Of a stretch of DNA of 64,000 nt, positions 3,576 through 55,663 are shown piece by piece; the first letter of the stretch is position 1; each line of letters begins with the position of its first letter. The position numbers were made by a program, and so were the translations under genes. Where the stretch lies: contig KV748212.1 in assembly GCA_001692895.1 (NCBI GenBank), positions 806,001 to 870,000 on the forward strand. Direction: 5' to 3'. This stretch comes from Cenococcum geophilum 1.58 (taxonomy: Eukaryota; Ascomycota; Dothideomycetes; Gloniales; Gloniaceae). The notes beneath the pieces were generated by a model that worked only from the letters and a program-made list of their open reading frames with translations, made no database searches and had not been told where the DNA came from.

Positions 3576-5616
3576 CTATCTCCCTCCTTTTTATCTTTAT
3601 CCTTAAAGATTTAAAACATCTCTAAGTTATTTACTAGAGGTATAATGTCCGTCTAATTAATTTAGTTAATATTATTGCTTATTATACCTAAAGCAATTTC
3701 TTCTTCCTCAACTGCTCGTCGTGCTTGCACTATCGCTGCGATATTATCTCTTAGTGAGATCATACCGTCTCTATATTCTCGCTGTTTGAAAGAGGGGTTA
3801 GTTTATATTGCGTTGGCGAACCTATTTTCGCGATAACCGTCCTCTTGCTCAGAGTGCACTAAAGCAAATATTTATTTATCCTACGACGTTCGCTCCGTCT
3901 CTAATGCCGAATATACACAACCTATTACTCTTAATAGTCGTCTAGTTCCCTAATTAATTTATCTTAGGGTCTCGTGTTTAATCTGCTACTGCGCGGCTAA
4001 ATAATAAACTGTCTGTTACTTTAGCGGAGTTGCGCCATTCTTATAATGCTAAATAAGAGGCTGCCGATGCTCAGCAACGGGCCCTTAAATCTCGTCTTAT
4101 GGCATCCGCTTAATTAATCCGTCTTAAGAAGGTGCGTAAGAAGGTTTATTTTAAGGAGTGGAAACTTATAAAATAAGGTCTACAGGAACTTGGCGATAAA
4201 AGAATAGATTCTCTTCTAACAGAGAAGGAAATAGATCTAAGTAGTTCGGCAACTGCTCTTCTTAGGTCCCCCTTAGGTAACTTATTCTTTAGTGATCCTT
4301 CTTTATTAATACTACCTAACCTAATCTCTTCTGATACTCCTATACCTTTCCTATAGCATTCTTTAAATTTTCTAATAGCTCCTAGGTAGTCTTAGTATAG
4401 CCTATCCACTTAACCTTATACTATATTTTATCGTTAACATCCTTATAACTAATAATCTTTAAAACTTGCCATTTATCTTCCTCTTATCCTCTATATATAT
4501 CTACTTCGTAAACCAGTGGCTTAACATTCCTATATACTAGCTCTAGTATTATAATATGTTATATAGGGTAGATCTTCATTTTAGCTAGTAGGTTTAACTT
4601 AAACGTAACCAGTAAAATCCTCTATATAATTTTAAAAGGTCCTAGTCTAACATAATCCAACTTCTTGCTTAGTCATCAACTCTTAAAATTTTTGTATAGT
4701 AGCTATACTTTATCTCCCTCCTTAAGATCTAGTCCCTTAGATCTTTTAGCATTATAGTACCTTTTTATTTTCTCTTATACTTTCTTTACTAATTCTATAA
4801 GGTCTATATAAAGATTTATTAACATCTTTATCCTTTCTTTAGCTATGTTACTCATCTTCTTTACTTGCCGTAGTAACAACAATATCCTTAGCTTATATCT
4901 ATAATTTGCCTTAAATAGTAATATACCTATTCCTTCTTAAGGTATTACATTATATGCAAACTATATAACTAGTAATAGCGATACCTAATTATTCTGTGCA
5001 TAATTAATATAATGCCTTAGATACTGCTCTAGCGTCTAATTTAATCTTTCCGTTTAACCGTCTATCTGCGGATAATATATAGTGGAAGTTACTACTTAAA
5101 CTCCTTACTCCGCTAAGAATACCTCCTAGAATGCTGCTATAAATCTTAAATCTCTATCCGATATAATCTTGCTTAGTGCTCCATGTCTTATAAACACTTC
5201 TTTAACATAAATTCTAGCGACATCTTCCGCTGAGATTTCTTCTGTATATGCTATAAAGTATCCCCACTTTATAAGCTTATCTACTATTACTAAGATCGCG
5301 TTATAATCTTATCCGGTAATAGGGTCTCTTAACTTTAGCAACTTAATAATAAAGTCCTATAATATAACCTCCTATAGTCTCTTTAGTATTTTAACAGGTT
5401 ATAGCCCTCCGTATAGCTTATGCCTTATTAGTTTATTCCTTTAGTAATCTAAACACTCCTTTATAACCTTTCTAGCTATCCTTTAGATTCCGTCAATAAT
5501 ATACTCCTCTTAGAGTCTTAACACTAAGCCTATAGCTCCGTTGTGTCCTTAAGTTAGTCCCTTATAGAAGTCCTCCACAAACTACTCTACTATGCTTCTT
5601 AGGATATACTTTACTT
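3576..5616 (-). pseudogene. G0 integrase, chromodomain and 3' noncoding part
   Basis: The minus strand here reads the integrase region (about 5600 down to 4550) and then a chromodomain-like segment near 4350-4450 with the pattern of charged strand, VKW and a final NLKNA helix. Chromodomains mark the chromovirus branch of gypsy, where they steer integration to heterochromatin. About 770 bases of noncoding sequence follow down to the polypurine tract, with less RIP wear than the coding part. It is a fossil with many breaks. Confidence 0.65.
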
Positions 5617-7767
5617 AACCATTTACCACACATGCAACCTTACCAAAAGGTAGCGCCACACTTTAAAACTTACGCATACCTATCTTACCATCAAAAACAA
5701 TCGATTTTCCAACTTTTAAGACCCAATTCTTACTACCTAGCGAGCTAGAGGTGGATTTATTTATCGTTTTACCCCCTTTCCCCTAACAGAAAATTCTTCT
5801 TAGGGGTGGTCCTAGCTTATAAGCGAGGCACGGACAGGAATACTAAAACTAAATACCAAAACCACGGAATATAGAGGCTAGATTTTCTACTACCTTTTAG
5901 CCTAATCTCCCCAGAAATCTTCTAGTAGGATTAGTAAGGAGAAAGGGTATAAGGGTAGTAAAAACTAGGAAACCCCCCTATAAGATACAAAATGCTAAAG
6001 CCTAATAGGTCTAAAAAAAAACCTCCTATAGAAATAAGTGATGAGGATTCTACATCTACTTTTTCTCCCCCTTCTCCTTCCCCTGGCCCGTTTAGGACAG
6101 GAGAAAAAAGAGGATATCCTTAGTCTTCTCCTAAAAAAGAAAACCAAAAACCTACAAAAAAGACAATAAAACCAACGACTACTACGGATAGTACGGCTAA
6201 TATGCCTTCCTATTCCCCTTCCTATTCCCCTTCTCCAGAACAACATCTAAGCTTCGCCCTAAAAAGCCTAACCTAGGCCTATAAAGGGCTAAAAGAAGAA
6301 GAAGAAGAAAGAGAAAAAATAAAAGAATAAGTTAAATAGCTAGTGTACTATACACAAAGTATCCTATTAGGAGAAAAACCCTTTACACAAGAAGAAGAAG
6401 AAGAAGAAGAAAAAGAAAAGAAAAAGGCAAATAAGGTCCTAAAAGGACTAGTAGAAGAAGTAAGAGCTCTCCATAAGGAGGTAGCCTCTACTAAAAAAAC
6501 CTACGCAGAGAGACTAAAGAAGGACCTCCCTACTTCGTCCTCTCTACCCTCCCCACCACTACTATCTCCTACCCCTTCTCCTTCTAGTAGGAGTACTACT
6601 TTTACTAAAAGTAAGAAAAAGCAGCTATAAGAAAGGAAGCTAGTCCTAATTATAGACAAAAAGGACTAACCTTTAGATACCTTCTCTATACGAAACAAAG
6701 TTAATTAACTATTCGTATTAAAACTACAGGTAGAAAAGCTAGTGCTAGCGTCTATAGCTAGAACTAAAGGGAAACAAAATATTCTCCTTATAACTACAGA
6801 AGAGTATAATACAGATTTCCTAGTCAAGTATAAGGATATTTGGCATAACTGCTTTACCTTTTAAAGAGAACAAAAACTAGAACCCTAGGTTCAAATTATA
6901 GCCTATAGGGTTCCTACCCTACCTTTTCTAGGAGAGGAAGGCTCTAAGCTTCTAAAAGAAGAAATTGAGACCTTTAATCCTATAAGGATACAAGGACTAC
7001 CTAGATAGATCTTATCTAGTAAAAAAAGACACAATCCACAGACCAGATTTGGCTCTATAGTTTTTACTATAGAGAACAAAGAAAAAAGACAAGAAATCCT
7101 NAAGNAAAAAGAGATATTAATTNCAGGTACAGCTACTAAGGTAGTAAAATACCTTAAAGTCTCTCCTACTACGCAGTGTATAAGCTGCCAAAAATTTGGC
7201 CATATAGGAGACAGGTGCTCTACTAGAGCCTGCAGATACTATGCAGCTACACATTTATCTAAAGACCATTCCTATTCTACCTGTATAATAACAGGCAAGC
7301 CTTACTAGCATACCATCCCTCTTTGCATTAATTGTAAAAAAAAAACACTTTGCTAATAGTAAAGACTGTAAGACTCTTAAAGCAGCTAAACTAGTACATA
7401 AAGAAGATTCTATGGAAGAATAAAATAGATAGGATTCTAGAAGGAGGCAACTCCTACTAGGCTCTTAAAAAGATATTAGAGAGCAAAAGGACAGAATAAA
7501 TTGCAAAAGGACAGGGACAGGTGTTAGGATTTTATAGTTTTTCCTACTATTTTCTTATTCCCTAGTAGTTGTAGGAACTTAGGGATTACTAAGGAACTAT
7601 AAACTCCTAGTTTAGGAGTTTATAAACTACTAGGACATAGCTACTAGTACATATTAAGCTATCTAGAAAGGATTTATGTATATAGAACTATAGCGCCATA
7701 GCCTAGAGGCTGCATGCACAGTATTGTACGTAGTATAATACAATTGGATATAATAATAAAAAAAAAA
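5617..7767 (+). mobile_element. ORF1-only LINE, copy 1 (inside G0)
   Basis: This non-LTR element has a poly-A end at 7756-7767 and a 13-bp target duplication, ATATACTTTACTT, at 5604-5616 and 7768-7780. The unit is 2151 bases: about 375 bases of 5' leader, one ORF1-type reading frame (about 5992-7423) and about 340 bases of 3' tail ending GTACGTAGTATAATAC...poly-A. Matching full units lie at 31625-33785 and 42473-44635, with the same ends. None holds an endonuclease or reverse transcriptase, so the family depends on another element for movement. It sits between the reverse transcriptase/RNase H and integrase parts of G0, so it is younger than G0. Confidence 0.88.
5992..7423 (+). pseudogene. 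LINE ORF1 protein with zinc knuckles (about 475 codons)
   Basis: The frame opens at ATG 5992. The N-terminal third is Ser/Pro/Lys-rich (SDEDSTSTFSPPSPSPGP). Around 6250-6530 comes a Glu/Lys-rich probable coiled coil (EEEEEEEKEKKKANKVLKGL), followed by a Ser/Pro linker. From about 6640 to 7120 is a globular region of the kind found in LINE ORF1, possibly RRM-like. The C-terminus has CCHC knuckles: CISCQKFGHIGDRC at 7177-7218, a probable second, and CINCKKKHFANSKDC at about 7324-7369. Such proteins bind element RNA to form the transposition particle. Several in-frame TAG/TAA stops of RIP type and an extra A near 7340 break it. The ambiguous bases at 7101-7123 come from the assembly. Confidence 0.75.
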
Positions 7768-7780
7768 ATATACTTTACTT

Positions 7781-31441: not shown

Positions 31442-31624
31442 TCAACCAAATCTCGATCAATTTTCGACTAAAACGCCAAAATCTGACCTCGACCAAATAT
31501 CAATCAATTGTTGACCAATTTTTTAATTAAATCTGAACTAGATCTTAAGTCAATTTCATCTCTATTTCACTTTCACTTGAATTTCATTTTAGTTAAATCT
31601 TAATTAAATCTTATCTAAATCTTG
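31442..31624 (+). other. C2a leader, first part
   Basis: This is untranslated leader without a gene, rich in AAATCT and CAAAT words and continuing at 33796 to the gag ATG at 34001. CTAAATCTTG at 31615-31624 is the left target duplication of the inserted LINE. Confidence 0.7.
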
Positions 31625-33785
31625 TTTTTTTTTTTTTTATTTTTTTTTATATATATCCGATTGTATTATACTACGTATAATACTGCGTATACAGCCTCTA
31701 GGCTATGGCGCTATAGTTCTATATACATAAATCCTTTCTAGGCAGCTTAATATGTACTAGTAGCTATATCCTAGTAGTTTATAAACTCCTAAACTAGGAG
31801 TTTATAGTTCCTTAGTAATCCCTAAGTTCCTATAACTACTAGGGAATAAGAAAACAGTAGGAAAAACTATGAAATCCTAATACCTGTCCCTGTCCTTTTG
31901 CAATTTATTCTGTCCTTTTACTCTCTAATATCTTTTTAAGAGCCTAGTAGGAGTTGCCTCCTTCTANAATCCTATCTGTTTTATTCTTCCATAGAATCTT
32001 CTTTACGTACTAGTTTAGCTGCTTTAAGAGTCTTACAGTCTTTACTATTAGCAAAGTGTTTTTCTTTATAATTAATATAAAGAGGGGTGGTATGCTGGCA
32101 AGGCTTGCCTATTATTATACAGGTAGAACAGGAATAGTCTTTAGATAAATATGCAGCTGTACAGTATCTATAGGCTCTAGTAGAGCACCTGTCTCCTATA
32201 TGGCCAAATTTTTAGCAGCTTATACACTGCGTAGTAGGAGAGACTTTAAGGTATTTTACTACCTTAGTAGCTGTACCTGCAATTAATATCTCTTTTTGCT
32301 TAAGGATTTCTTGTCTTTTTTCTTTGTTCTCTATAGTAAAAACTATAAAGCTAAATCTAGTCTGTAGATTGTGTCTTTTTTTACTAGATAAGATCCATCT
32401 AGGTAGTTCTTATATCCTTATAGGATTAAAGGTCTTGATTTCTTCTTTTAGAAGCTTAGAGCCTCCCTCTCCTAGAAAAGGTAGGGTGGGAACCCCATAG
32501 GCTATAATTTGAACCCAGGGTTCTAGTTTTTGTTCTCTTTAAAAGGTAAAGCAGTTATACCAAATATCCTTATACTTAACTAGGAAATCTGCATTATACT
32601 CTTCTATAGTTATAAGGAGAATATTTTNTTTCCCTTTAGTTCTAGCTATAGACGCTAGCACTGGCTTTTCNACCTNCAGTTTTNATATNAATAGTTNATT
32701 GACTTTNTTTCGTATAGAGAAGGTATCTANAGGTTNGTCCTTTTNGTCTATAATTAGGACTAGCTTCCTTTCTTATAGCTGCTTTTTCTTACTTCTAGTA
32801 GAAGTAGTACTCCTACTAGAAGNAGAAGGGGTAGGAGATGGTAGTGGTGGGGANGGTAGAGAGGACGAAGTAGGGAGGTCCTTCTTNAGTCTCTCTGNGT
32901 AGGTTTCTTTAGTAGAGGCTACCTCCTTACGGAGAGCTCTTACTTCTTCTACTAGTCCTTTTAGGACCTTATTTGCCTTTTCTTTTCTTTTTTTTCTTCT
33001 TCTTCTTCTTTTTATGTAAAGGGTTTTTCTCCTAATAGGATACTTCGTGTATAGTACACTAGCTATTTAACTTATTCTTTTATTTTTTTTTTTCTTCTTC
33101 TTCTTCTTCCAGCCCTTTATAGGCCTGGGTTAGGCTTTCTAGGGCGAAGCTTAGATGTTGTTCTAGAGAAGGGGAATAGGAAGGGGAATAGGAAGGCATA
33201 TTAGCCGTACTATCCGTAGTAGTTATTGGTTTTATTGTCTTTTTTGCAGGTTTTTGGTTTTCTTTTTTAGGAGAAGACTAAGGATGTCCTCTTTTTTCTC
33301 CTATCCTAAACGGGCTAGGGGAAGGAGAAGGGGGAGAAAAAGTAGATGTAGAATCCTCATTACTTATTTCTATAGGAGGTTTTTTTTTAGACCTATTAGG
33401 CCTTGGCATTTTGTATCTTATAGGGGGGTTTCCTAGTTTTTACTACCCTTATACCCTTTCTCCTTACTAATCCTACTAGAAGATTTCTGGGGAGATTAGG
33501 CTAAAAGGTAGTAGAAAATCTAGCCTCTATATTCCGTGGTTTTGGTATTTAGTTTTGGTGTTCCTGTCCGTGCCTCGCTTATAAGCTAGGACCACCCCTA
33601 AGAAGAATTTTCTGTTAGGGGAAAGGGGGTAAAACGACAAATAAATCCACCTCTAGCTCGCTAGGCAGTAAGAATTGGGTCTTAAAAGTTGGAAAATCGA
33701 TTGTTTTTGATGGTAAGATGGGTATGCGTAAGTTTTGAAGTGTGGCGCTACCTTTTGGTAAGGTTGCATGTGTGGTGAAAGGTGC
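31625..33785 (-). mobile_element. ORF1-only LINE, copy 2 (inside C2a leader)
   Basis: This is a full unit of 2161 bases on the minus strand. Its poly-A end appears as the T run at 31625-31646. The flanks CTAAATCTTG (31615-31624) and CTGAATCTCG (33786-33795) are a 10-bp target duplication that has since diverged by two transitions. Its ends and content match copy 1 at 5617-7767 and copy 3 at 42473-44635. It has only ORF1. Scattered ambiguous bases at 31967 and 32629-32898 mark places where the assembly could not choose between copies. Confidence 0.88.
31985..33409 (-). pseudogene. LINE ORF1 protein with zinc knuckles (copy 2)
   Basis: The frame opens at ATG 33409 on the minus strand (MPRPNRSKKKPP) and parallels copy 1: a Ser/Pro/Lys-rich head, a Glu/Lys-rich coiled coil near 33100-32960, a globular middle and CCHC knuckles near 32220-32040. 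Stop codons are fewer than in most elements here but still break it. It would be an RNA-binding particle protein. Its partner reverse transcriptase is not encoded in the unit. Confidence 0.72.
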
Positions 33786-33795
33786 CTGAATCTCG

Positions 33796-41943: not shown

Positions 41944-42472
41944 CTAAATAATTAAATATAAAGCTAGATGGGTAGTAAAAGGCTTTAGTTAGCAATATGG
42001 CATAGATTATAAAGAAACCTTCGCAAATACTTGCCGCCCAGAAGTGTATAAAATGCTACTATATTTAGCAGCTTACCATAATTAGGAAATAGTATAATGG
42101 GACTTTAAAAATGCGTTTACGCATGCTAATATAGACAAAGAGCTATATGTAGAATAACCAGAAGGTGTTACTGTAATACNNAATAAGGTATATAAATTNA
42201 ATAAAGCTNTATATNGCCTAAAACAATNACNAANAATATGGTATAACCACCTAGCAAATAACCTTAAAAAAGAAGGATTTTATCCTATCTTTGCAGATCA
42301 GGCAGTATTTAAAAATAATACACTAGGCATTATAATAATCTACTATATAGACGATCTATTAGTATTTGGCCGAAATATTAAATAAATAAATAAAATCCAA
42401 ACAAAACTAGGTAAAGACCTAGAATTGATAAATTTAGGACCAGTTTCCTATTTCCTAAATATAGAAATTACT
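41944..42472 (+). pseudogene. C2a reverse transcriptase, middle part
   Basis: The copia reverse transcriptase resumes after LINE-B with YKETFANTCRPEVYKMLLYLAA near 42020-42075. It then runs through DFKNAFTHANIDKELYVE near 42105-42150 and the catalytic IIYYIDDLLVFG near 42335-42370. It is a fossil with breaks. The ambiguous bases at 42180-42235 are assembly gaps. ATAGAAATTACT at 42461-42472 is the target duplication of the next LINE. Confidence 0.78.
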
Positions 42473-44635
42473 TTTTTTTTTTTTTTTTTTTTTTAATATC
42501 CGTTGTATTATACTACGTACAATACTGCGCAATGCAAGCCTCTGGGCTATGGCGCTATAGTTCTATATACATGAATCCTTTTCTAGGCAGCTTAACATGT
42601 ACTAGTAGCTATGTCCTAATAGTTTATAAACCCCTAAGGGTTTATAGCTCCTTAGTAAGATACTAAGTTGCTACAACTACTAGGGAATGAGAAAACTGTA
42701 GGGAAAAAACTATAGGAAATCCTAACGCCTGTCCCTGTCCTTTTGTAATTTAATTTCTTTTCTTTTGCTCTCTATTATCTTTTCCAAGAGCCTAGTAGGG
42801 GTTACCCCCTTCTAGAATCCTATCTGTTTTATTCATTGTACTAGTTTAGCGCTCTAAGATTCTCGCAGTCTTTACTATTAGCAAAGTGTTCTTCCTTACA
42901 ATTAATGCAAAGAGGGGTAGTGTGCTTGCAAGGCCTGCCTGATTATTAAAACAGATAGGACAGCAGTGGGTCTTTAGATAAATGTGGCAGCCGCACAGAA
43001 TCTACAGGCTCTAGTAGAGCATCTGTCTCCTATATGGCCAAATTTTTGGCAAGCTAGTGGCAACTGCGTAGTAGAGAGACTTCGAGGTATTTTTTACTAC
43101 CTTAGTTAGCTGTACCTGCAATTGAGATCTCTTTTTGGCTTTAAGGATTTCTTGTCTTTTTTTCCTCGTTCTCTATAAGTAAAAAACTATAGAGCCAAAT
43201 CTAGTCTGCGGATCATGTCTTTTGTACACTAGATGCAGAATCCATCTAGGTAGCCCTTGTATCTTTATAAGGATTAAAGGTCTCAATTTCTTCTTTTAGA
43301 AGCTTAGGAGCCTCCCTCTCCTAGGAAAAGGTAGGGTGGGAACCCCATGGGCTATAATTTGAACCCAGGGGCTCCAGTTTTTGTTCTCTTTGAAAGGTAA
43401 AGCAGTTACGCCAGATATCCTTATATTTGACTAGGGAAATCCGCAATTATACTCTTCTGTAGTTGTAAGGAGAATATTTTGTTTTCCTTTGGTTCTAGCT
43501 ATAGACGCTAGTACTGGCTTTTCTACTTGCAGTTTTGATGCAAATAGTTTGATTGACTTTGTTTCGTATAGGAGAAGGTATTTAGCGGTTGGTCCTTTTC
43601 GTCTGTTAATTAGGACTAGCTTCCTTTCTTGTAGCTGCTTTTTCTTACTTCTAGTAGAAGTAGAACTCCTACTAGAAGAAGAGAAGGGGGTAGAAGGTTG
43701 GTGGTGGGTGGAATGATAATGAGGGAGGGTAGGGAGGACGAAGAAGGGAGGTCCTTCTTTAGCCTCTCTGCGTAAGTTTCCTTAGTTAGGAGCTACCTCC
43801 TTACGGAGAGCCTGTACCTTCTTCTACTAGTCCCCTTAGGACATCTTTTGCTTTTCTTTTCCTTGTATAAAGGGGTTCTCCTGCTAGGATACTCCGTGTG
43901 TAGTCCTCTAGCTGTTAACTTGTTCTTTTTCTTCTTTTTCTTCTTCTTCTAGCCCTTTATAGGCCTGAGTTAGGCTTTCTAGAGCTTTTTGTAGGTGTTG
44001 TTTTGGAGAAAGGGAGGGAAAAGGTAATGCTAGGTATACTATCCGTAGTTAATCATTGGGTTTTGTTATCTTTTTGCAGGTTTTGGTTTTGGTTTTCATT
44101 TTCAGGAGAAGACTGAGGATGTCCTCTTTTTTCTCCTGCCTTAAATAGGCCAGAAGAAGAAGAAGAGGGAGGAGAAAAAGTAAACGGGTATATCAGACTG
44201 ATGATCACTTATTTCTAAAGGAGGCTTTTTTTTTTGCCTATTTGACTTTGGCATTTTATAGGGGGGTTTCCTAGTTTATACTATCCTTGTACCCTTTCTC
44301 CTTACTAATCTTACTAGAAGATTTCTGGGGAAAATTAGGCTAAAAGGTAGTAGAAAANCTAGCCCCTATTTTGTAGTTTTGGTATTNGTGGTAGTAGTAG
44401 TAGTTTTGGTGTTCCTGTCTGTGCCTCGCTTACAAGCTAGGGCCACCCTTAGGAAAATTTTCTGTTGAGGGAAAGGGGGTAAGACGACGACTAAATCCAC
44501 CTCTAGCTCGCTAGGCGGTAGGAATTAGGTCTTGAAAGTTAGAAAATTGATTGTTCTTAATAGTAAGATGGGTATGCGTAAGTTTTGGAGTGTGGCGCTA
44601 CCTTTTAGTAAGGTTGCATGTGCGGTGAAGGGTTG
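42473..44635 (-). mobile_element. ORF1-only LINE, copy 3 (inside C2a)
   Basis: This is a full unit of 2163 bases on the minus strand with a T run (poly-A) at 42473-42494. The 12-bp target duplication ATAGAAATTACT, at 42461-42472 and 44636-44647, is still perfect. Compared with copies 1 and 2 it keeps far more TpG/CpA, so it is little touched by RIP. It does carry a number of one- or two-base insertions and deletions instead. It has only an ORF1-type region, with a zinc-knuckle area near 43060-42880. Confidence 0.88.
42840..44253 (-). pseudogene. LINE ORF1 protein (copy 3), many small indels
   Basis: The ORF1 start lies near ATG 44253 (the word TTTGGCAT on the plus strand), and the domains follow in the same order as in copies 1 and 2: Ser/Pro/Lys head, Glu/Lys coiled coil near 43990-43920, globular middle and knuckles. 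Breaks here are mostly small insertions and deletions rather than TAG/TAA stops, which is unlike the other copies. The cause could be real mutation or poor base calling in a collapsed repeat; ambiguous bases stand at 44358 and 44387, just upstream. Confidence 0.65.
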
Positions 44636-44647
44636 ATAGAAATTACT

Positions 44648-45306: not shown

Positions 45307-45842
45307 GGTTATAAGCCCGGCTGCTCTAACCTCAACCAAATCTCAATCAATTTTCGACTAAAACGCCAAAATCTGACCTCAAACAAATATCAATTAATTA
45401 TTAACCAATTTTTTGATTAAATCTGAACCAAATCTTGAGTCAATTTCATCTCCGTTTCACTTTCACTTGAATTTCATTTTAAGTCAAATCTTGTTTAAAT
45501 TCTATTTAAATCTTGATCGAATCTTGATCGAATCTGAAATTTTACTTGTCCAAATCCTATCATTCAATTTTATCTGTTCAATCCTATCGTTCAATTCTAT
45601 TTATCTATTCGCAGATAAAATGTCAGACAAAATCTCAATCGAAAAGCTCATTGGGCAATCCAACTACGAAGTCTGGAGCCTTCGGGTCCAATCACTTCTC
45701 GTAAAAGGATCGCTTAGTGATGCTATAGAAGAAGGAGTTACCCCAAAAGGGGAAATTAACTAAAAAGCCTTAGCCAATATAAGGCTGACAATTAACGATG
45801 GACCTCTCTTGCAAATACAGTATTCCAAAACAGCTCTAAAAG
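44951..45842 (+). mobile_element. C2b: 5' end of a second C2 copia copy
   Basis: An LTR (44951-45306) is followed by the primer site (45307-45331), the leader and a gag start at ATG 45620 that matches C2a at 34001 with transitions only over the first 140 bases or so. It ends abruptly at 45842, where a minus-strand LINE-A fragment begins. It probably inserted into C2a RNase H and was later cut by rearrangement. It is a fossil remnant. Confidence 0.8.
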
Positions 45843-47470
45843 TATTCCTTAGCCGTGTCTACTATGCAGTCCGCTATTACCTTTTTTAAGATCTTACTAA
45901 GGGTGTTTTCTAAGGCAATAGGGCGGTAGCTTCCTAGGATTAAGTAATCTACTTTACCTTCTTTTTATAGGACAACCGTCGTTATAGATTTTCCGAGTTA
46001 TAGGTAGTAGCCTATAGTAAAGTATACTCTAGCTATATCTGCAAGCTAAGGTGCTATAAGTAGTCTATAGGTCTTTAAGGCCTTATTTAGAATCCTATCT
46101 AGTCCTAGTACTATATTATTTAAAAGGCGGCTAATAGTTCTAGCCATTTCCTCTATTGTTATATCGCTGTTAACCTATAGGCGAGTTACTAGTGCTTTAC
46201 CTGTAATATCACTAAGGTCTGCTAGAGCCGGTTAGGGGAAGAACCTTTTTATAAGAATCTTTACCTTCTTATCGTTATTATTAGTGGCCTATAATTACCC
46301 TACTCTTTATAGGGGTAGTAGGTATAGATCTTCTACTAGTCGCCCTACCTTTTTCTTTACCTATTTTGCTATAACCTACAAGCCCTTATTATAGGGGAGG
46401 CTTAGGTTAAAGGTATACTTATTTATAAATTATTTCCAATTATTCCTTACTTCTTTTTTAGGGTATTCTTTAACTAGTTTCTTATGTCTTTATATCGTCT
46501 CTTATCTTTAGGGTTATAGCTACTTAAGTATTTCCTTCTTGCTCGTTATTAGCTAGCTATAAAAACCGCGCATTATGCGGGCTATATATATCGCGTATAG
46601 GGGCCCAGTCTTAAGACCAGGCAGTGCTCTTCTAGCCTATTTTTAATTGCTACTTAAATCCTTTCTAGTCTTTAGTTAATTTCCTTAGGGGTAGTTAATA
46701 AGCCTCGCTTATTTAGTATTAGGTGGATTTCTACTAGGTCTTAGAGTTATTATTTAACTATATTAAGAAAACTGTCTGCCTTAAGCATCCTTATTACATA
46801 TCTTTTGCTATTTAGTTACGCCTTAATGCCTAAATCTAGCTATATTTAGATGGGGATATAGTTTAAGGTAAGTGCCTATTCTTTTTTAGGGTTATACCTT
46901 TTAAGTCTCTAGTATAGGCCTTCGTCTATAAATATAAGGTTAATTATACTTATAGCGGATCCTTATTACTATATAATTGCTCTAGGGGGGGTAGCTAGCT
47001 TAAGGCCCTAGGTATCTATAGCTTTTAATAGGCACTTTACCTATCGTTTAGCAGTAATATAGATACCCCCCCATTGTAGGTAGTAGAGGTTTATATCTCC
47101 TAATAGGATAAACTCTATGCCTTTGGTTTTAAGTAAGCTTATTATTAATATAATATTCTCTGTTTATAGGACCCCTTTAACCCTAGGGTTATATATATTA
47201 ATAATTTATACCAGTCCTCTATATATCTAGATTAACTGCCTACTATAACTATAAGCATAGGCTAATAGTCTTACTAATTATAAAGCATACGCGTATAGCT
47301 GCTTTTGGTTTATATAGAAGCTAAAATCCTTAGAGGCAGTATATTAATTATATATAGGTATTATAGTACGGCTCTTATATAGTAAGGATATAGTATTTCT
47401 CTAGGTCTAGACTATCTAGTAAGGGCCTTATAAGACGGTGGTTTGTATTACTATAGTTATACTATATAAT
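45843..47470 (-). pseudogene. LINE-A ORF2 fragment (endonuclease and start of RT)
   Basis: On the minus strand the endonuclease N-terminus lies near 47440-47400 and its GDINLYY-type motif near 47115-47080. The reading then runs into the EN-RT linker and the YRPIAL-type start of reverse transcriptase near 45940-45870. The rest of reverse transcriptase, including the catalytic motif, is missing. Many TAG/TAA stops of RIP type are present. Confidence 0.7.
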
Positions 47471-47499
47471 GGATAGGTGGCGGACCCCTAGCGAGGGTC

Positions 47500-49750
47500 C
47501 TTCACCTCTCCGTTATTCCTTACTTCTTCTATTTCTACTTTCTCTAAAATATTTAAAACTTTTATCTCTTATATCTACACCCTAGTTACTACTTATTTTA
47601 TATAGAACTTTTCATTCCCGTATTTTGTATTCTTACTAGCGCTTCTATATCTAAATCTGTTATTATCTCCAGTTCTTCCCCTATTCTTACTAGTTAGCTA
47701 TATACCCTTTAAAAGTCGGCTATAAATATTATATTTGCCGCGTTAAGTCTAATTCTTAATTATCCTGGTCTTAAGCTTGCTATAGCTATCTATAAGGGTC
47801 TTCCTATAGGGCGTCCTCTCCTTTATATCCCCTGTAACCCTTATATCCCTATATAGTCTAGTAATATCGCATAGCGTCGCTTCTAGCCCGTTAAAGCTTA
47901 GGATAGCTAGCCTAGCCCCCTAGTATTAAAGGTAGGAAACGCTAGAAAGGTACCTACGCCCCCCTAGCTTATCGCCTATTATTTCCATTTATATAACCTG
48001 TCAATGATAATCTCTAATATTGCTTATGTAAGCGTTATATAAGAACACCCTAGAAGAACCCTACGGCTTTACGCGGTGTATTAGATGGTATTAGCTAGTA
48101 TATCAACTAGTATATTAGCTAGTATATCAACTAGTATATCAGCTAGTATATCAACTAGTATATTAGATGGTATCAGCTAGTATATTAGCTAGTATATCAG
48201 GTAACGTATTACCTAGTATATTAGGTAACGTATCACCTAGTGTATCAGGTAATGTATTACCTAGTGTGTTAGGTAACGTATTACCTAGTATATTAGGTAA
48301 CGTATTAGAATATAAGTCGGAATGTAGACGTTCCGGAACTAGGGTCTTCTAGGTATATAGAGACTCGATCCCCCGCAGATAGACATTATCAATTGCATTA
48401 AGTTCATCCACTTCACTTACTTCACTACATCGTTTACCCTGTCGTCCTCCGACCTCCGCTTACGCAAATTAATATAACCTAGCGTACAGTTATTCCTATA
48501 GCTATTAAGCCCTTACCTTCCGTCTCCTATATTTAATATAGTCTTCTCTCTCCTACGCCTTATATATGCTTTAGTGGCAGTTTACGCATTTTATTTAGTC
48601 TTAATTTAAGTAGTGTCTTATATTATAGGGGCCTGCGCAGTGGCCGTAGTATACCTATACTGCGTATATGGATTGGGTGTGCCCCTATTATATATAGTAA
48701 TAGCATTATTCTAGACGGAGTCTGTAGTTATAGAGCCTTACGTTATATATAAGGCTATTTATAATAATACCTTTTTAGATAAGGAGTTTTTATATTCCTA
48801 GTATATATATACTAATAATAAGGGAGCTATACGTTTAACCGGCGTTTCCCTAGCAAGTCTCTAGCGACCCTTATATTCTTTTATTATTTTTATTATATAC
48901 TTAATTTACATTCCCCTATTAAAGCTATTAGATTTAGGTAATCTTAAATTCTAGTATAAGGCGTTCCGTTTATTTTACTATCTTATATATAGTTACTATA
49001 TTATCCACCTAGCGTCCCTTTTTTACCCTAAGGCTTAGGGGAACCGCTAGGACTTTAACTAGGTAATCTTTATAGAGCACTTTTATGCCAATACGTTCTC
49101 CTAGCCTATCCTCTACCCTAACGGCTTATTCCTTTACCTATTAGTCCCTTAAGGTAACTCTAATATCTCCACTCCTAAGGTATTAGACTATAATAGCGTT
49201 ATAGACCTCTTTACGAATCTCTATAAGGACTTCTATTTCTAATTATCCCTTAAGCCCCTCTACTTTTTTATATTCGGTTATATTATAATTATATACCCAG
49301 ATATTATCTTTAGGGGGGTAGGTTCCCTATACTATAAACGTATAGCTACAGCGGCCTAGGTGCGGTTTACCGGTAAGGAGGGGTTTTATTTATTTTTAAT
49401 TTTGCTTAGCTATTAGAGGATTTAATTAAGGGTTTGCTAAAGGGGCGCCTAAGGTTCGCTAGACTAGCAGAGCCATTTTACTAGCTGCATTAGTTCGTTA
49501 TAGCTAACAGTTACTTCCCTATAACTGCGGATACCAGACACATTTAATAGGCTTTATATTTTATTAAATGCTTTCTTAATAGAGGTCTTTCCGCTTTATA
49601 GTGTGGTATTTACCCGTTCTTATTATAGAGGGCTATTGCTAGGCGTGGTTTTAGTAGACGCGCGCAAGTATAAGCCACTATCATTTAACGTATGCCTCCC
49701 CTACGATGTATATATCTTAGGAGGATTCTCTAAGTGTTTTTCAGAATTCT
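47500..49750 (-). pseudogene. LINE-A ORF1, split by a solo LTR
   Basis: ORF1 is read on the minus strand at 49750-48480 and, after the LTR, 47993-47500. It is homologous to 53700-55490 and 55760-57540. The C-terminal half contains the worn zinc-knuckle region (near 48690-48560), including a stretch complementary to CATATACGCAGTATAGGTGT. Many stops interrupt it. Confidence 0.65.
47999..48474 (+). repeat. Solo C2 LTR inside LINE-A copy 1
   Basis: This is a 476-base C2 LTR, TGTCAATGATAATC to AAATTAATA, with TAACC on both sides (47994-47998 and 48475-48479). No internal region is present, so it arose by LTR-LTR recombination after insertion. It is the longest C2 LTR here, mixing AGCTAGTATATCAACT-type and AACGTATTACCTAG-type tandem units. 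Confidence 0.92.
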
Positions 49751-49796
49751 TTTAGTTGGTTTTAGTCTTTTTAGGCCGGATGTAGTAAGAGCTCTA

Positions 49797-50660
49797 AGTT
49801 TTTAGTAGTAGTATAAAGGTGGAATATAGAGCTATATAAACCCCTAAGCACCTACTATTAAACTGCGACCTATATAGAGGAGAGAGAAAAGAGATACAAA
49901 GGCAACTAGGATCTTCTTTCTCTTTAAAGAAACTATTTTATATAAGGAAAGGAAGAGAGGCGCTTTTTCTATTTCTAGATAGAATAGAAATAGCTAAGAA
50001 AGTAGCTAATAATAGCAGAATCCTTAAGAGGAAGTAATTCCTACTAGGCTTCTAGTAGATAGATATTAAAGAGTAAAAGAATAGAAATAAGGTATAAATA
50101 GGATAGGGGTAGGTATTAGGGTTTCGTAATTTTATAATTTCTTATAGTCTCCTCCACCGTTTTTAAACCACCTACTACTTTACTAGGGAGTGGTAAACCC
50201 CTAATTTAGAGGTTTATAAACTATTAGGATATAGCTACTAGTATATATTAAGCTGCCTAAAGGGATATATATATATATATATAGAACTATAGCGTTATAG
50301 CCTAGAGGCTGTATGTGTAGTATTATATATTAATTATAAACTCTAATATTGCTTATATAAGCGTTATATAAGAACCCTAAAAGAACCCTATAGCTTTACG
50401 TGGTATATTAGATAGTATTAGCTAGTATATTAACTAGTATATTAGGTAACGTATTAGAATACGAGCCGGAATATAGACTTTCCGGAACTAGGGTCTTCCA
50501 GGTATATAGAGACTCGATCCCCTGTAGATAGACATTATTAATTATATTAAGTTTATCCACTTTACTTACTTCACTACATTGTTTACCCTATCGTCCTCCA
50601 ACCTCCGCTTACCTAAATTAATATTATACGTAGTATAATATAATGGATATTTAAAAAAAA
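49797..50660 (+). mobile_element. 5'-truncated relative of the ORF1-only LINE, holding a solo LTR
   Basis: From about 50030 the sequence parallels the last 500 bases of the ORF1-only family (the AAGAGGAAGTAATTCCTACT region against 7440-7460, then the 3' tail) but with many differences, so it is a divergent subfamily. The tail is split at 50323-50628 by a C2 solo LTR and resumes CGTAGTATAATATAATGG with a short A run at 50652-50661. The part 49797-50030 is unrecognised A+T-rich sequence with a 9-codon Glu/Arg/Lys-rich reading and may or may not belong to it. Confidence 0.65.
50328..50623 (+). repeat. Solo C2 LTR in the LINE tail
   Basis: This 296-base C2 LTR has few tandem units. It starts TATTAATTATAAAC (TG end changed) and ends AAATTAATA. 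The five flanking bases TTATA match at 50323-50327 and 50624-50628. Confidence 0.9.
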
Positions 50661-53584: not shown

Positions 53585-53676
53585 TATTTTATATATCTAT
53601 TGTATTATACTATGTATAATACTATATATACAGCCTCTATACTATAGCGCTATGGTTCTATATATATAAATACTTA
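53585..53676 (-). mobile_element. 3' tail scrap of the ORF1-only LINE family
   Basis: The stretch TTGTATTATACTATGTATAA...CTATAGCGCTATGGTTCTAT is the reverse complement of the family 3' tail (compare 31662-31730). Only about 90 bases are kept, a strongly 5'-truncated insertion. Its edges are uncertain. Confidence 0.6.
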
Positions 53677-53849
53677 GATAGACTTATTGGAGCTCTTGCT
53701 ATACCTGGCCTAAAAAGACTAAAACCAACTAAAAGAACCCTGAAAAACACTTAGAGAATCCCCCTAAGATATATACATCGTAGGGGAGGCATACGTTAAA
53801 CGACGGTGGTTTGTACTTACGCGCGTCTACCAGAACTATGCCTAGTAAT

Positions 53850-55490
53850 AGCCCTTTATAACAAGAATAGGCGAATACTACACTATAAAGCGGAAAGACC
53901 TCTATTAAAAAGGCATCTAATAAAATATAAAGCCTATTAGACGTGTCTAGTATCTATAGTTATGGGGGAGTAACCGTTAGCTATAATAAACTAATATAGC
54001 TAGCAGAATGGCTCCGCTAGTCTAGTAAACCCTAGGCGCCTCTCTAGTAAACCCTTAACTAAATCCTTTAATAGTTAAGTAAAATTAAAAATAAACAAAA
54101 TCCCTCCTTACTAGCGAACTATACCTGGGCCGCCGTAGCTATATATCTATAGTATAGGGAACCTACCCCCCTAAAGATAATATTTAGGTATATAATTATA
54201 ATATAACTAAATATAGAAAAAGTAGAGGGGCTTAGGGGATAATTAGAAACAGAAGTCCTTACGGAGATTTATAAAGAGGTTTATAACGCTGTTATAGTCT
54301 AATACCTTAGGAGTAGAGATATTAGAGTTACCCTAAGGACTAATAGGTAAAGGAATAAGCCGTTAGGGTAGGGGATAGGCTAAGAGAATGTATTAGTATA
54401 AAAGTGCTCTATAAAGATTACTTAGTTAAAGTTCTAATGGTTCCCCTAAGCCTTAGGGTAAAAAAGGGACGCTAGGCGGATAATATAGTAATTATATATA
54501 AGATAGTAAAATAAATAGAACGCCTTATACTAGGACTTGAGATCACCTAAATCTAATAGCTTTAATAGGAAAATGTAAACTAAGTATATAATAAGAATAA
54601 TAAAAGAATATAAGGGTTACTAAAGACTTACTAGGGAAACGCCAGTTAAACGTATAGCTCCCTTATTCTTAGCATATATATACTAGGAATGCAAAAACTC
54701 CTTATTTAAAAAGGTATTATTATAAATGGCCTTATATATAACGTAAGGCTCTATAACTATANACTCCGCCTANAATAATNCTANCGCTATNTATAATAGN
54801 GACANACCTAATCCATATACGCAGTATAGGTGTGCTGCGGCCACTGTATAGGCCCCCATAATATAAGATAATGCTTAAATTAAGACTAAATAAAATACGT
54901 AAACTGCCACTAAAGTATATATAAGGCGTGGGAGAGAGTAGACTATATTAAATATAGGAGACGGAAGGTAAGGGCTTAATAGCTACAGGAATAACTGTAT
55001 ACTAGGTTATATAAATAAAAATAATAGGCGATAAGCTAGGGGGGTATAGGTGCCTTTCTAGCGTTTCATACCTTTAATACTAGGGGGCTAGGCTAGCTAT
55101 CCCAAGCCTTAATAGGCTAGAAGTAACGCTATATAATATTACTAAACTATATAGGGATATAAGGGTTATAGGGGATATAAGGGAGAGGATGCCCTGTAGG
55201 AAGACCCTTATAGACAGCTATAGTAAGCTTAAGACTAGGATAATTAAAAATTAGACTTAACGCGGTAAATATAACATTTATAGCCGACTCTTAAAGGGTA
55301 TATAGCTAACTAGTAAGAATAGGGGAAGAACCGGAGATAATAATAGATTTAGATATAGAAGCGCTAGTAGGAATATAAGATATGGGAATAGAAAGCTCTA
55401 TATAAAATAAGTAGCAACTAGGGTATAGATATAAGAGATAGAAGTTCTAAATGTCCTAGAGAAAGTAAAAATAGAAGAAGTAAGGAATAA
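53850..55490 (+). pseudogene. LINE-A ORF1 (copy 3)
   Basis: It reads the same ORF1 as copy 4, with an N-terminal region, a conserved middle (YLRSRDIRVTLR-like near 54300-54340, then VKVLMVPLSLRVKKGR near 54425-54475) and a knuckle region near 54800-54900. It has numerous RIP-type stops, more than copy 4. It would have been a zinc-knuckle RNA-binding protein. The start is uncertain. Confidence 0.65.
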
Positions 55491-55502
55491 AGGAGAGGCA
55501 AA

Positions 55503-55525
55503 GGACCCTCGCTAGGGGTCCGCCA
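55503..55525 (+). promoter_or_regulatory. Hairpin between LINE-A ORF1 and ORF2 (copy 3)
   Basis: GGACCCTCGCTAGGGGTCC near 55504-55522 can pair its first six or seven bases with its last. It stands just before the ORF2 endonuclease reading (IQYNCG-like, near 55545). The equivalent sites are at 57549 and, reversed, near 47480. Confidence 0.6.
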
Positions 55526-55663
55526 CCTATCTATTATATAGTATAACTGCGGTAATATAAACTACCGTCTTATAAGGCCCTTACTAGACAGCCTAAACCT
55601 AAAGAAACACTATATCCTTACTATATAAGAGCTATATTATAATGCCTATATATAATTAATATA

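Follow-up and report, generated by a model that had tools for sequence, protein, structure and literature searches.

The window that we analysed (C37:806001-870000, 64 kb of a genome of 177 Mb in 162 contigs) contains three full-length members of a real family of ORF1-only, non-autonomous LINEs with fixed ends, as the original prediction had held, and further full-length copies were found genome-wide. Our reading of this family, to which we give a probability of about 85%, is that it is an internally deleted LINE derivative that would have spread by target-primed reverse transcription on a borrowed ORF2 protein, using an ORF1 of its own, before being broken by repeat-induced point mutation (RIP). 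Comparison with three partner LINEs shows that ~4.0 kb were deleted inside the ORF2 of a LINE of the endonuclease type belonging to this genome; what remained was the 5' leader, an ORF1 that now reads into the first ~12 codons of ORF2, and the last ~345 nt. The ORF2 protein of an intact LINE would have been borrowed through the common 3' tail, that is, in trans. The ORF1 protein, in turn, would be a product of the unit acting on the RNA that encoded it, as suggested by an ORF1 frame that was maintained during diversification of the family. A RIP-like process would later have broken all the copies checked.

The first copy, unit A (5617-7767, forward strand), has ends and a poly-A that can be read directly from the sequence. 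Unit B (31625-33785, reverse strand) carries its ORF1 from about 33409 down to 31981, and unit C (42473-44635, reverse strand) is more diverged, with 81% identity to A. A self-comparison of the window matched each of the three to the others, in direct or inverted orientation, with both ends in common and with poly-A tails. Unit A is flanked by an exact 13-bp target duplication, ATATACTTTACTT (5604-5616 and 7768-7780, forward strand), and unit C by an exact one of 12 bp, ATAGAAATTACT (42461-42472 and 44636-44647). The 10-bp duplication of unit B contains two mismatches (CTAAATCTTG / CTGAATCTCG, 31615-31624 and 33786-33795), so that the common ends, the tails and the duplications of 13, 10 and 12 bp were borne out with this qualification. 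In a set of 33 copies, an exact duplication of at least 8 bp was present in 18, versus 3.0% of the flank pairs re-dealt between copies, and thus the duplications are not due to chance. This set comprises 31 full-length copies (with unit B counted as 0 by the strict rule) and the loci L059 and L060, whose 5' end differs from that of the unit. In addition, the 5'-truncated copies L050 and L057 have target duplications of at least 10 bp. The family shows what target-primed reverse transcription of a LINE leaves behind: copies ending in poly-A or an A-rich stretch, duplications of the target, and 5' truncations.

When the genome was searched with the whole unit and the best 40 of 1654 candidates were scored, 39 of the 51 matches listed extended over >2.0 kb of the query (2151 nt). 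Three more copies, fetched in 8-kb stretches, measured ~2.16 kb each and had no flanks in common, and the zinc-knuckle protein gave at least 150 matches with 77-99% identity (the best 150 of 707 candidates). Junctions of the unit type were counted 282 times genome-wide and those of the partner (ORF2) type 263 times by patterns allowing up to 3 mismatches (1 and 0 in the reversed controls), although the sensitivity of the two patterns is not necessarily equal. The 5'-end pattern occurred 518 times (reversed control, 1) and the tail-stem pattern, with up to 2 mismatches, 1287 times (reversed control, 0). Compared with the 545 junctions, this leaves ~740 tails outside both junction classes, many of which may be accounted for by short truncations and decayed junctions. 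On contigs C1-C3, 16 of the 22 listed 5' ends were paired by eye with a tail at 2.0-2.2 kb, two at 6.4-6.6 kb and one at 3.5 kb, and three were unpaired; this census is biased towards units, since it rests on exact pattern matches and the 5' ends of the C50 and C107 LINEs deviate from the pattern, and we place no weight on it.

The pair at C1:560898-564372 (reverse strand), with 5' end and tail 3.47 kb apart, has neither the unit nor the partner size, and may be due to an insertion or mark a third class of size. A stretch of ~280 kb (C37:811617-1094043) holds at least nine units, most of which are 94-96% identical to unit A. Two near-identical units are placed head to tail at C37:1011115-1015341 (L010/L011, reverse strand), where the upstream match lacks the last 47 nt; this arrangement may be a tandem duplication or a template switch. 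In L049 and L045 the unit matches start at positions 1759 and 1097, directly after the same end of one unrelated repeat (80% over ~720 nt), as if the unit pieces had been joined to, or aimed at, the end of this repeat.

The partner of the family was recognized by eye, by comparing the positions of the endonuclease matches (the best 150 of 396) with those of the zinc knuckle (the best 150 of 707). Among the matches listed, only C107 presented both in order and on one strand. Three LINEs of ~6.5 kb, in C107, C50 and C46 (L064-L066), share with the unit the 5' leader, the ORF1 and the last ~345 nt, and have ~4.0 kb of ORF2 between ORF1 and the common 3' end. In the C107 LINE (~6.45 kb), positions 1-239 of the unit match the 5' end (82%), 262-355 (85%) and 342-1790 (71%) match leader and ORF1, and, after ~4.0 kb absent from the unit, 1815-2145 correspond to the 3' end (82%). 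The layout is the same in C50 and C46, and the C50 LINE has its own 13-bp target duplication, CTACCCCTAGACA, and ~9-12 extra bases ahead of the 5' end. The leader of unit A (5617-5991, forward strand) is 78-87% identical to those of the partners over about the first 235 nt, and is common to them except for two partner-only stretches; in C107 and C50 the leader is longer, by ~215-230 and 70-115 nt. In the ORF2 of L066, Pfam recognized an endonuclease (PF14529, E 9e-16) and a reverse transcriptase (RVT_1, E 1.4e-30), and the partner reverse transcriptase matches the solved structures of LINE-1 ORF2p and R2. A stretch resembling the RNase H motif was seen by eye, and Pfam gave no match in L066:5231-5602. 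The partner is a putative member of the Tad1 clade.

With the end of ORF2 and the 3' UTR as query, 39 of the 41 matches listed covered at least 750 of 781 nt. The tails of unit and partner are 77-84% identical, with none of the three partners close, and transversions in the ORF1 block amount to 4.7% between the unit and two partners, 2.1% between those two partners, and a mean of 1.0% between units. The direct parent of the unit was thus not found among C107, C50 and C46. Having the same ends, these full-length LINEs could nonetheless provide the enzyme that copies the units. The original prediction had set a family that spreads by borrowing against derivatives of an ordinary LINE, and the outcome is mixed: the units do form a family of a size similar to that of the partner (282 junctions), and ORF2-bearing LINEs with the same tail not only exist but are numerous (263 junctions), from which it follows that the units derive from an ordinary LINE.

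A partner was also looked for behind the 3'-tail matches, 30 of the 41 listed having been cut out as loci in a set ranked by likeness to the unit. Of these 30 loci, 22 extended back to unit positions 287-403, most of them reaching the locus edge, and eight started at 597-1759; a unit tail running intact out of an ORF2 was found in none of the 30, with L055, whose upstream sequence is N, set aside. Likewise, three places with the 5' leader that were missing from the unit list were fetched as candidates, and all three were ordinary units. A search of all 66 loci for the partner ORF2 located it, besides the three partners, in one of these 30 (L053), as an inverted piece beside the tail, and at a single place covered by both L008 and L037, where it flanks a unit on the opposite strand; in L016, L034 and L039 there was a distant reverse transcriptase only (31-39%).

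Within the window itself, the original prediction had held that neither a LINE sharing this tail nor the driving ORF2 was present. This stands in that the RT-bearing LINEs of the window are not the partner but only distant relatives (28-35% over 162-441 aa, and 44% over one 55-aa match); it does not stand for the tail. A 3' fragment of an ORF2-bearing partner lies at 49821-50650 (forward strand), the match being interrupted at ~50327-50622 and the tail stem being at 50620-50643. Positions 49821-50327 are 76% identical to the partner, including ~200 nt absent from the unit, and 50029-50327 are 71% identical to the unit tail (E 1e-36). Another short piece of the tail lies at 53592-53686 (reverse strand; 82%, E 2e-20), and it too has the terminal stem, at 53600-53623. 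Both fragments adjoin, at 49821-49834 and 53686-53687, what appear to be the 5' ends of another repeat, head to head; its blocks at 45842-49834 (reverse strand) and 53687-55663 (forward strand) are perhaps a second LINE.

The deletion junction of unit A was placed at 7424-7440 (forward strand) by comparison with the partner LINEs, with respect to which ~4.0 kb of ORF2 are missing. The unit corresponds to a partner-type LINE without the ORF2 portion from about codon 12 to ~15 codons ahead of the stop. In C50 the end of ORF1 (KLVHE followed by a stop) overlaps the ORF2 start, MSTSLEGSIQEEEE. In the unit L024 the ORF1 stop has been lost and the frame continues through ~12 codons of ORF2 to a new stop, so that ORF1 ends in KLVHSTSVEDSMEE and a stop, finishing with STSVEDSMEE. 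Homology resumes ~15 codons ahead of the parental ORF2 stop, which in C46 follows WLRAAGSLEGGNSY. The variants of this junction are a damaged one in L013 and an ending in NSIEE and a stop in L028, and there is a 9-nt in-frame difference between unit subfamilies; unit C is shortened at this point.

How many deletions stand behind the units, and by which route, has to be weighed at this point. One possibility is that ordinary copies of the LINE lost ORF2 repeatedly and independently, and that the units are no family of their own; this would agree with a leader, ORF1 and tail that are common to units and partners and with the one odd-sized pair of 3.47 kb. However, 30 of 31 aligned full-length units have one junction and one new end of ORF1 in common, allowing for close variants, transversions between units average 1.0% as opposed to 4.7% between unit and partner, and the units form one clade versus two partners in the ORF1-block tree, albeit with a weak support of 0.45. 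We consequently regard repeated deletion as improbable, and the units apparently trace to one common deletion. This event could also have been the retrocopying of a partner transcript with ORF2 spliced out, instead of a deletion in DNA or cDNA, as the loss is confined neatly to ORF2, with nothing missing from ORF1 or the 3' UTR. Nevertheless, by eye, no GT..AG could be placed confidently at the diverged junction, and 4.0 kb is very long for a fungal intron; a spliced origin seems to us slightly more improbable still.

The ORF1 of unit A (5992-7423, forward strand) contains stops and one frameshift, and its end, EDSMEE and a stop, derives from the parental ORF2 start. The ORF1 of about 475 codons that had been proposed is traceable, since its frame can be followed over 467 codons in L024, but it was intact in none of the 40 copies checked, the longest open stretch having 252 codons. 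TAG or TAA stops occur in all three units of the window, the frameshift of unit A lies near 7345, and no open reading frame of at least 200 aa exists anywhere in the 64 kb. The predicted zinc knuckle was confirmed as a CX2CX4HX4C motif in unit A and, with one stop, in unit B; the CCHC region of unit A (7177-7360, forward strand) was aligned in 15 sequences, 13 units and two partners. A Glu/Lys-rich stretch is visible as well. Searches with ORF1 gave no Pfam family above the cut-off and no match in PDB.

The copies are A+T-rich and poor in CpA and TpG, which we take to be the pattern of RIP. In the 40 copies TpA/ApT is 1.64-2.01 and (CpA+TpG)/(ApC+GpT) 0.38-0.82, the values of the window being 1.67 and 0.53. 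For Cenococcum geophilum, the relevant excerpt of one paper gives RIP as 'Probably' (PMC5445492), and the sections of the genome paper at hand (PMC5023957) yielded no passage on LINEs or RIP.

Since RIP changes are transitions, transversions are a cleaner measure of selection, and these and indels were counted. Shared indels (those in 3 to 39 of 42 aligned copies), which are not independent events, have a length divisible by three in 22 of 37 cases in ORF1 and in 2 of 19 in leader plus 3' UTR (Fisher P 5e-4). Of 44 loci searched, 32 keep a block of 254-255 codons between two anchors in one frame (33 rows, of which a single one has 254 codons), and the other 12 yielded no such block owing to a frameshift or diverged anchors. 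On the tree of the gap-free 255-codon block (31 sequences, 29 of them units), transversions are distributed over the three codon positions as 4/5/20 on internal branches (P 2.5e-4) and 5/4/6 on terminal ones (P 0.82), the comparison of third positions between both giving a one-sided P of 0.06. For the whole ORF1 the figures are 34/24/50 (P 0.008) and 80/65/100 (P 0.02), respectively. Of 113 transversion events on internal branches, 3 made a stop, where 7.4% would be expected (P 0.03); on terminal branches the figure is 18 of 241 (P 0.90).

These data bear directly on whether the units were passive, spreading through the 3' tail alone in the manner of a SINE, with an ORF1 that would be a relic, its protein supplied by the intact LINE if needed. 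Some of our measurements lean that way: within the 3' region conservation is highest in the stretch ahead of the poly-A, the transversion dN/dS of the whole ORF1 is near 0.8 internally (0.79, P 0.18; terminal 0.69, P 0.01), and the codon-position counts made in the block without a tree are borderline. The latter are 2/5/8 for columns with the minor state in at least four units (P 0.17), 3/0/5 for two or three units (P 0.09) and 3/1/7 for private columns (P 0.08), which have the same lean as the shared ones; pooled, the shared columns give 5/5/13 (P 0.06) and all columns 8/6/20 (P 0.006). On the other hand, a relic would hardly account for a frame kept across subfamilies in its shared indels (22/37 versus 2/19 outside), for the anchored block in 32 of 44 loci, or for the internal 4/5/20. 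We thus consider passive spread doubtful, though it is the rival to be taken most seriously, and on these counts ORF1 was likely maintained by selection after the loss of ORF2.

The 3' region common with the partner (7431-7761, forward strand) contains the last ~15 codons of ORF2 and the 3' UTR. Hardly any transversions separate unit and partner in the ~120 nt ahead of the poly-A: in 12 units versus three partners, transversions per site were 0-1.1% at 30-150 nt from the 3' end, 2-15% at 150-240 nt and 2-8% at 240-330 nt, the last 30 nt being mostly poly-A and variable. This stretch includes a predicted terminal stem-loop (7720-7743, forward strand), GTATTGTAC-GTA-GTATAATAC, the stem counted genome-wide above. 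LINE/SINE pairs are the basis for reading such a common tail as an ORF2p recognition site, and the conserved stretch with its predicted stem-loop is a probable candidate for that role.

In L053 (868-1760), an inverted piece of the partner ORF2 (92% to C107 over 504 nt) lies head to head with a unit-type tail that begins at unit position 1753. An inversion beside a 3' tail is a trace of twin priming, so this one case could reflect twin priming with a switch from helper to unit RNA during copying. It may also be two neighbouring insertions, since no target duplication was found at this locus.

Beyond our main reading, we advance only tentatively that the lineage is old and semi-independent. It would have split off before the two compared ORF2 LINEs parted, used its own ORF1 in cis through several subfamilies, become about as numerous as its helper and formed at least one unit-helper hybrid (L053), with a stem-loop module that recruits more non-autonomous families.

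The likeness to mammalian HAL1 that had been proposed holds for the general build, since ORF1 is kept, ORF2 is absent, and the family has fixed ends and an ORF2-bearing relative with the same ends in the genome. However, the unit derives from another LINE, has a zinc-knuckle ORF1 that runs into the ORF2 start, has retained ~345 nt from the 3' end of the partner, where a predicted stem-loop is conserved, and presents RIP-like decay. L1 ORF1p is not known to have a zinc knuckle, and the partner does have one in its ORF1; for this reason the unit is not filed as HAL1 proper. HAL1 (half-L1), as described in the part of the source consulted, kept ORF1, lost ORF2 and depends on the reverse transcriptase and endonuclease of full-length LINEs (PMC5322556), and the units resemble it in having ORF1 without ORF2, poly-A, target duplications and, presumably, the same reliance.

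Among the open-licence PMC papers listed, as far as their titles and abstracts go, no fungal ORF1-only LINE was recognized, which is weak evidence of absence; a non-autonomous retrotransposon of powdery mildew is the subject of PMC6022598. Two other systems are close in kind. TRE5-A.2 of Dictyostelium is a derivative of TRE5-A.1 without ORF2 which, in the sections available, is described as helped in trans with an activity similar to that of the intact element, and the marked model derived from it contains ORF1 and undergoes mobilisation in trans (PMC5391098). The likeness is that of a LINE derivative without ORF2; TRE5-A.2 differs in that its activity was assayed and it targets tRNA genes, whereas the activity of our units is deduced from sequence. 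HeT-A of Drosophila, in turn, is reported in the passage at hand to encode only a Gag-like protein while its relatives encode a reverse transcriptase (PMC11698117). It is similar as a Gag-like-only LINE beside RT-encoding relatives, but it forms head-to-tail arrays at telomeres, whereas the units are dispersed and have target duplications. With a helper in the same genome, a mapped tail and hundreds of copies of each, the pair makes it possible to ask which parts a parasite LINE has to retain and whether ORF1 works in cis. On the sequence evidence, the unit family is of the same kind as HAL1, TRE5-A.2 and HeT-A, with its putative helper identified in the same genome.
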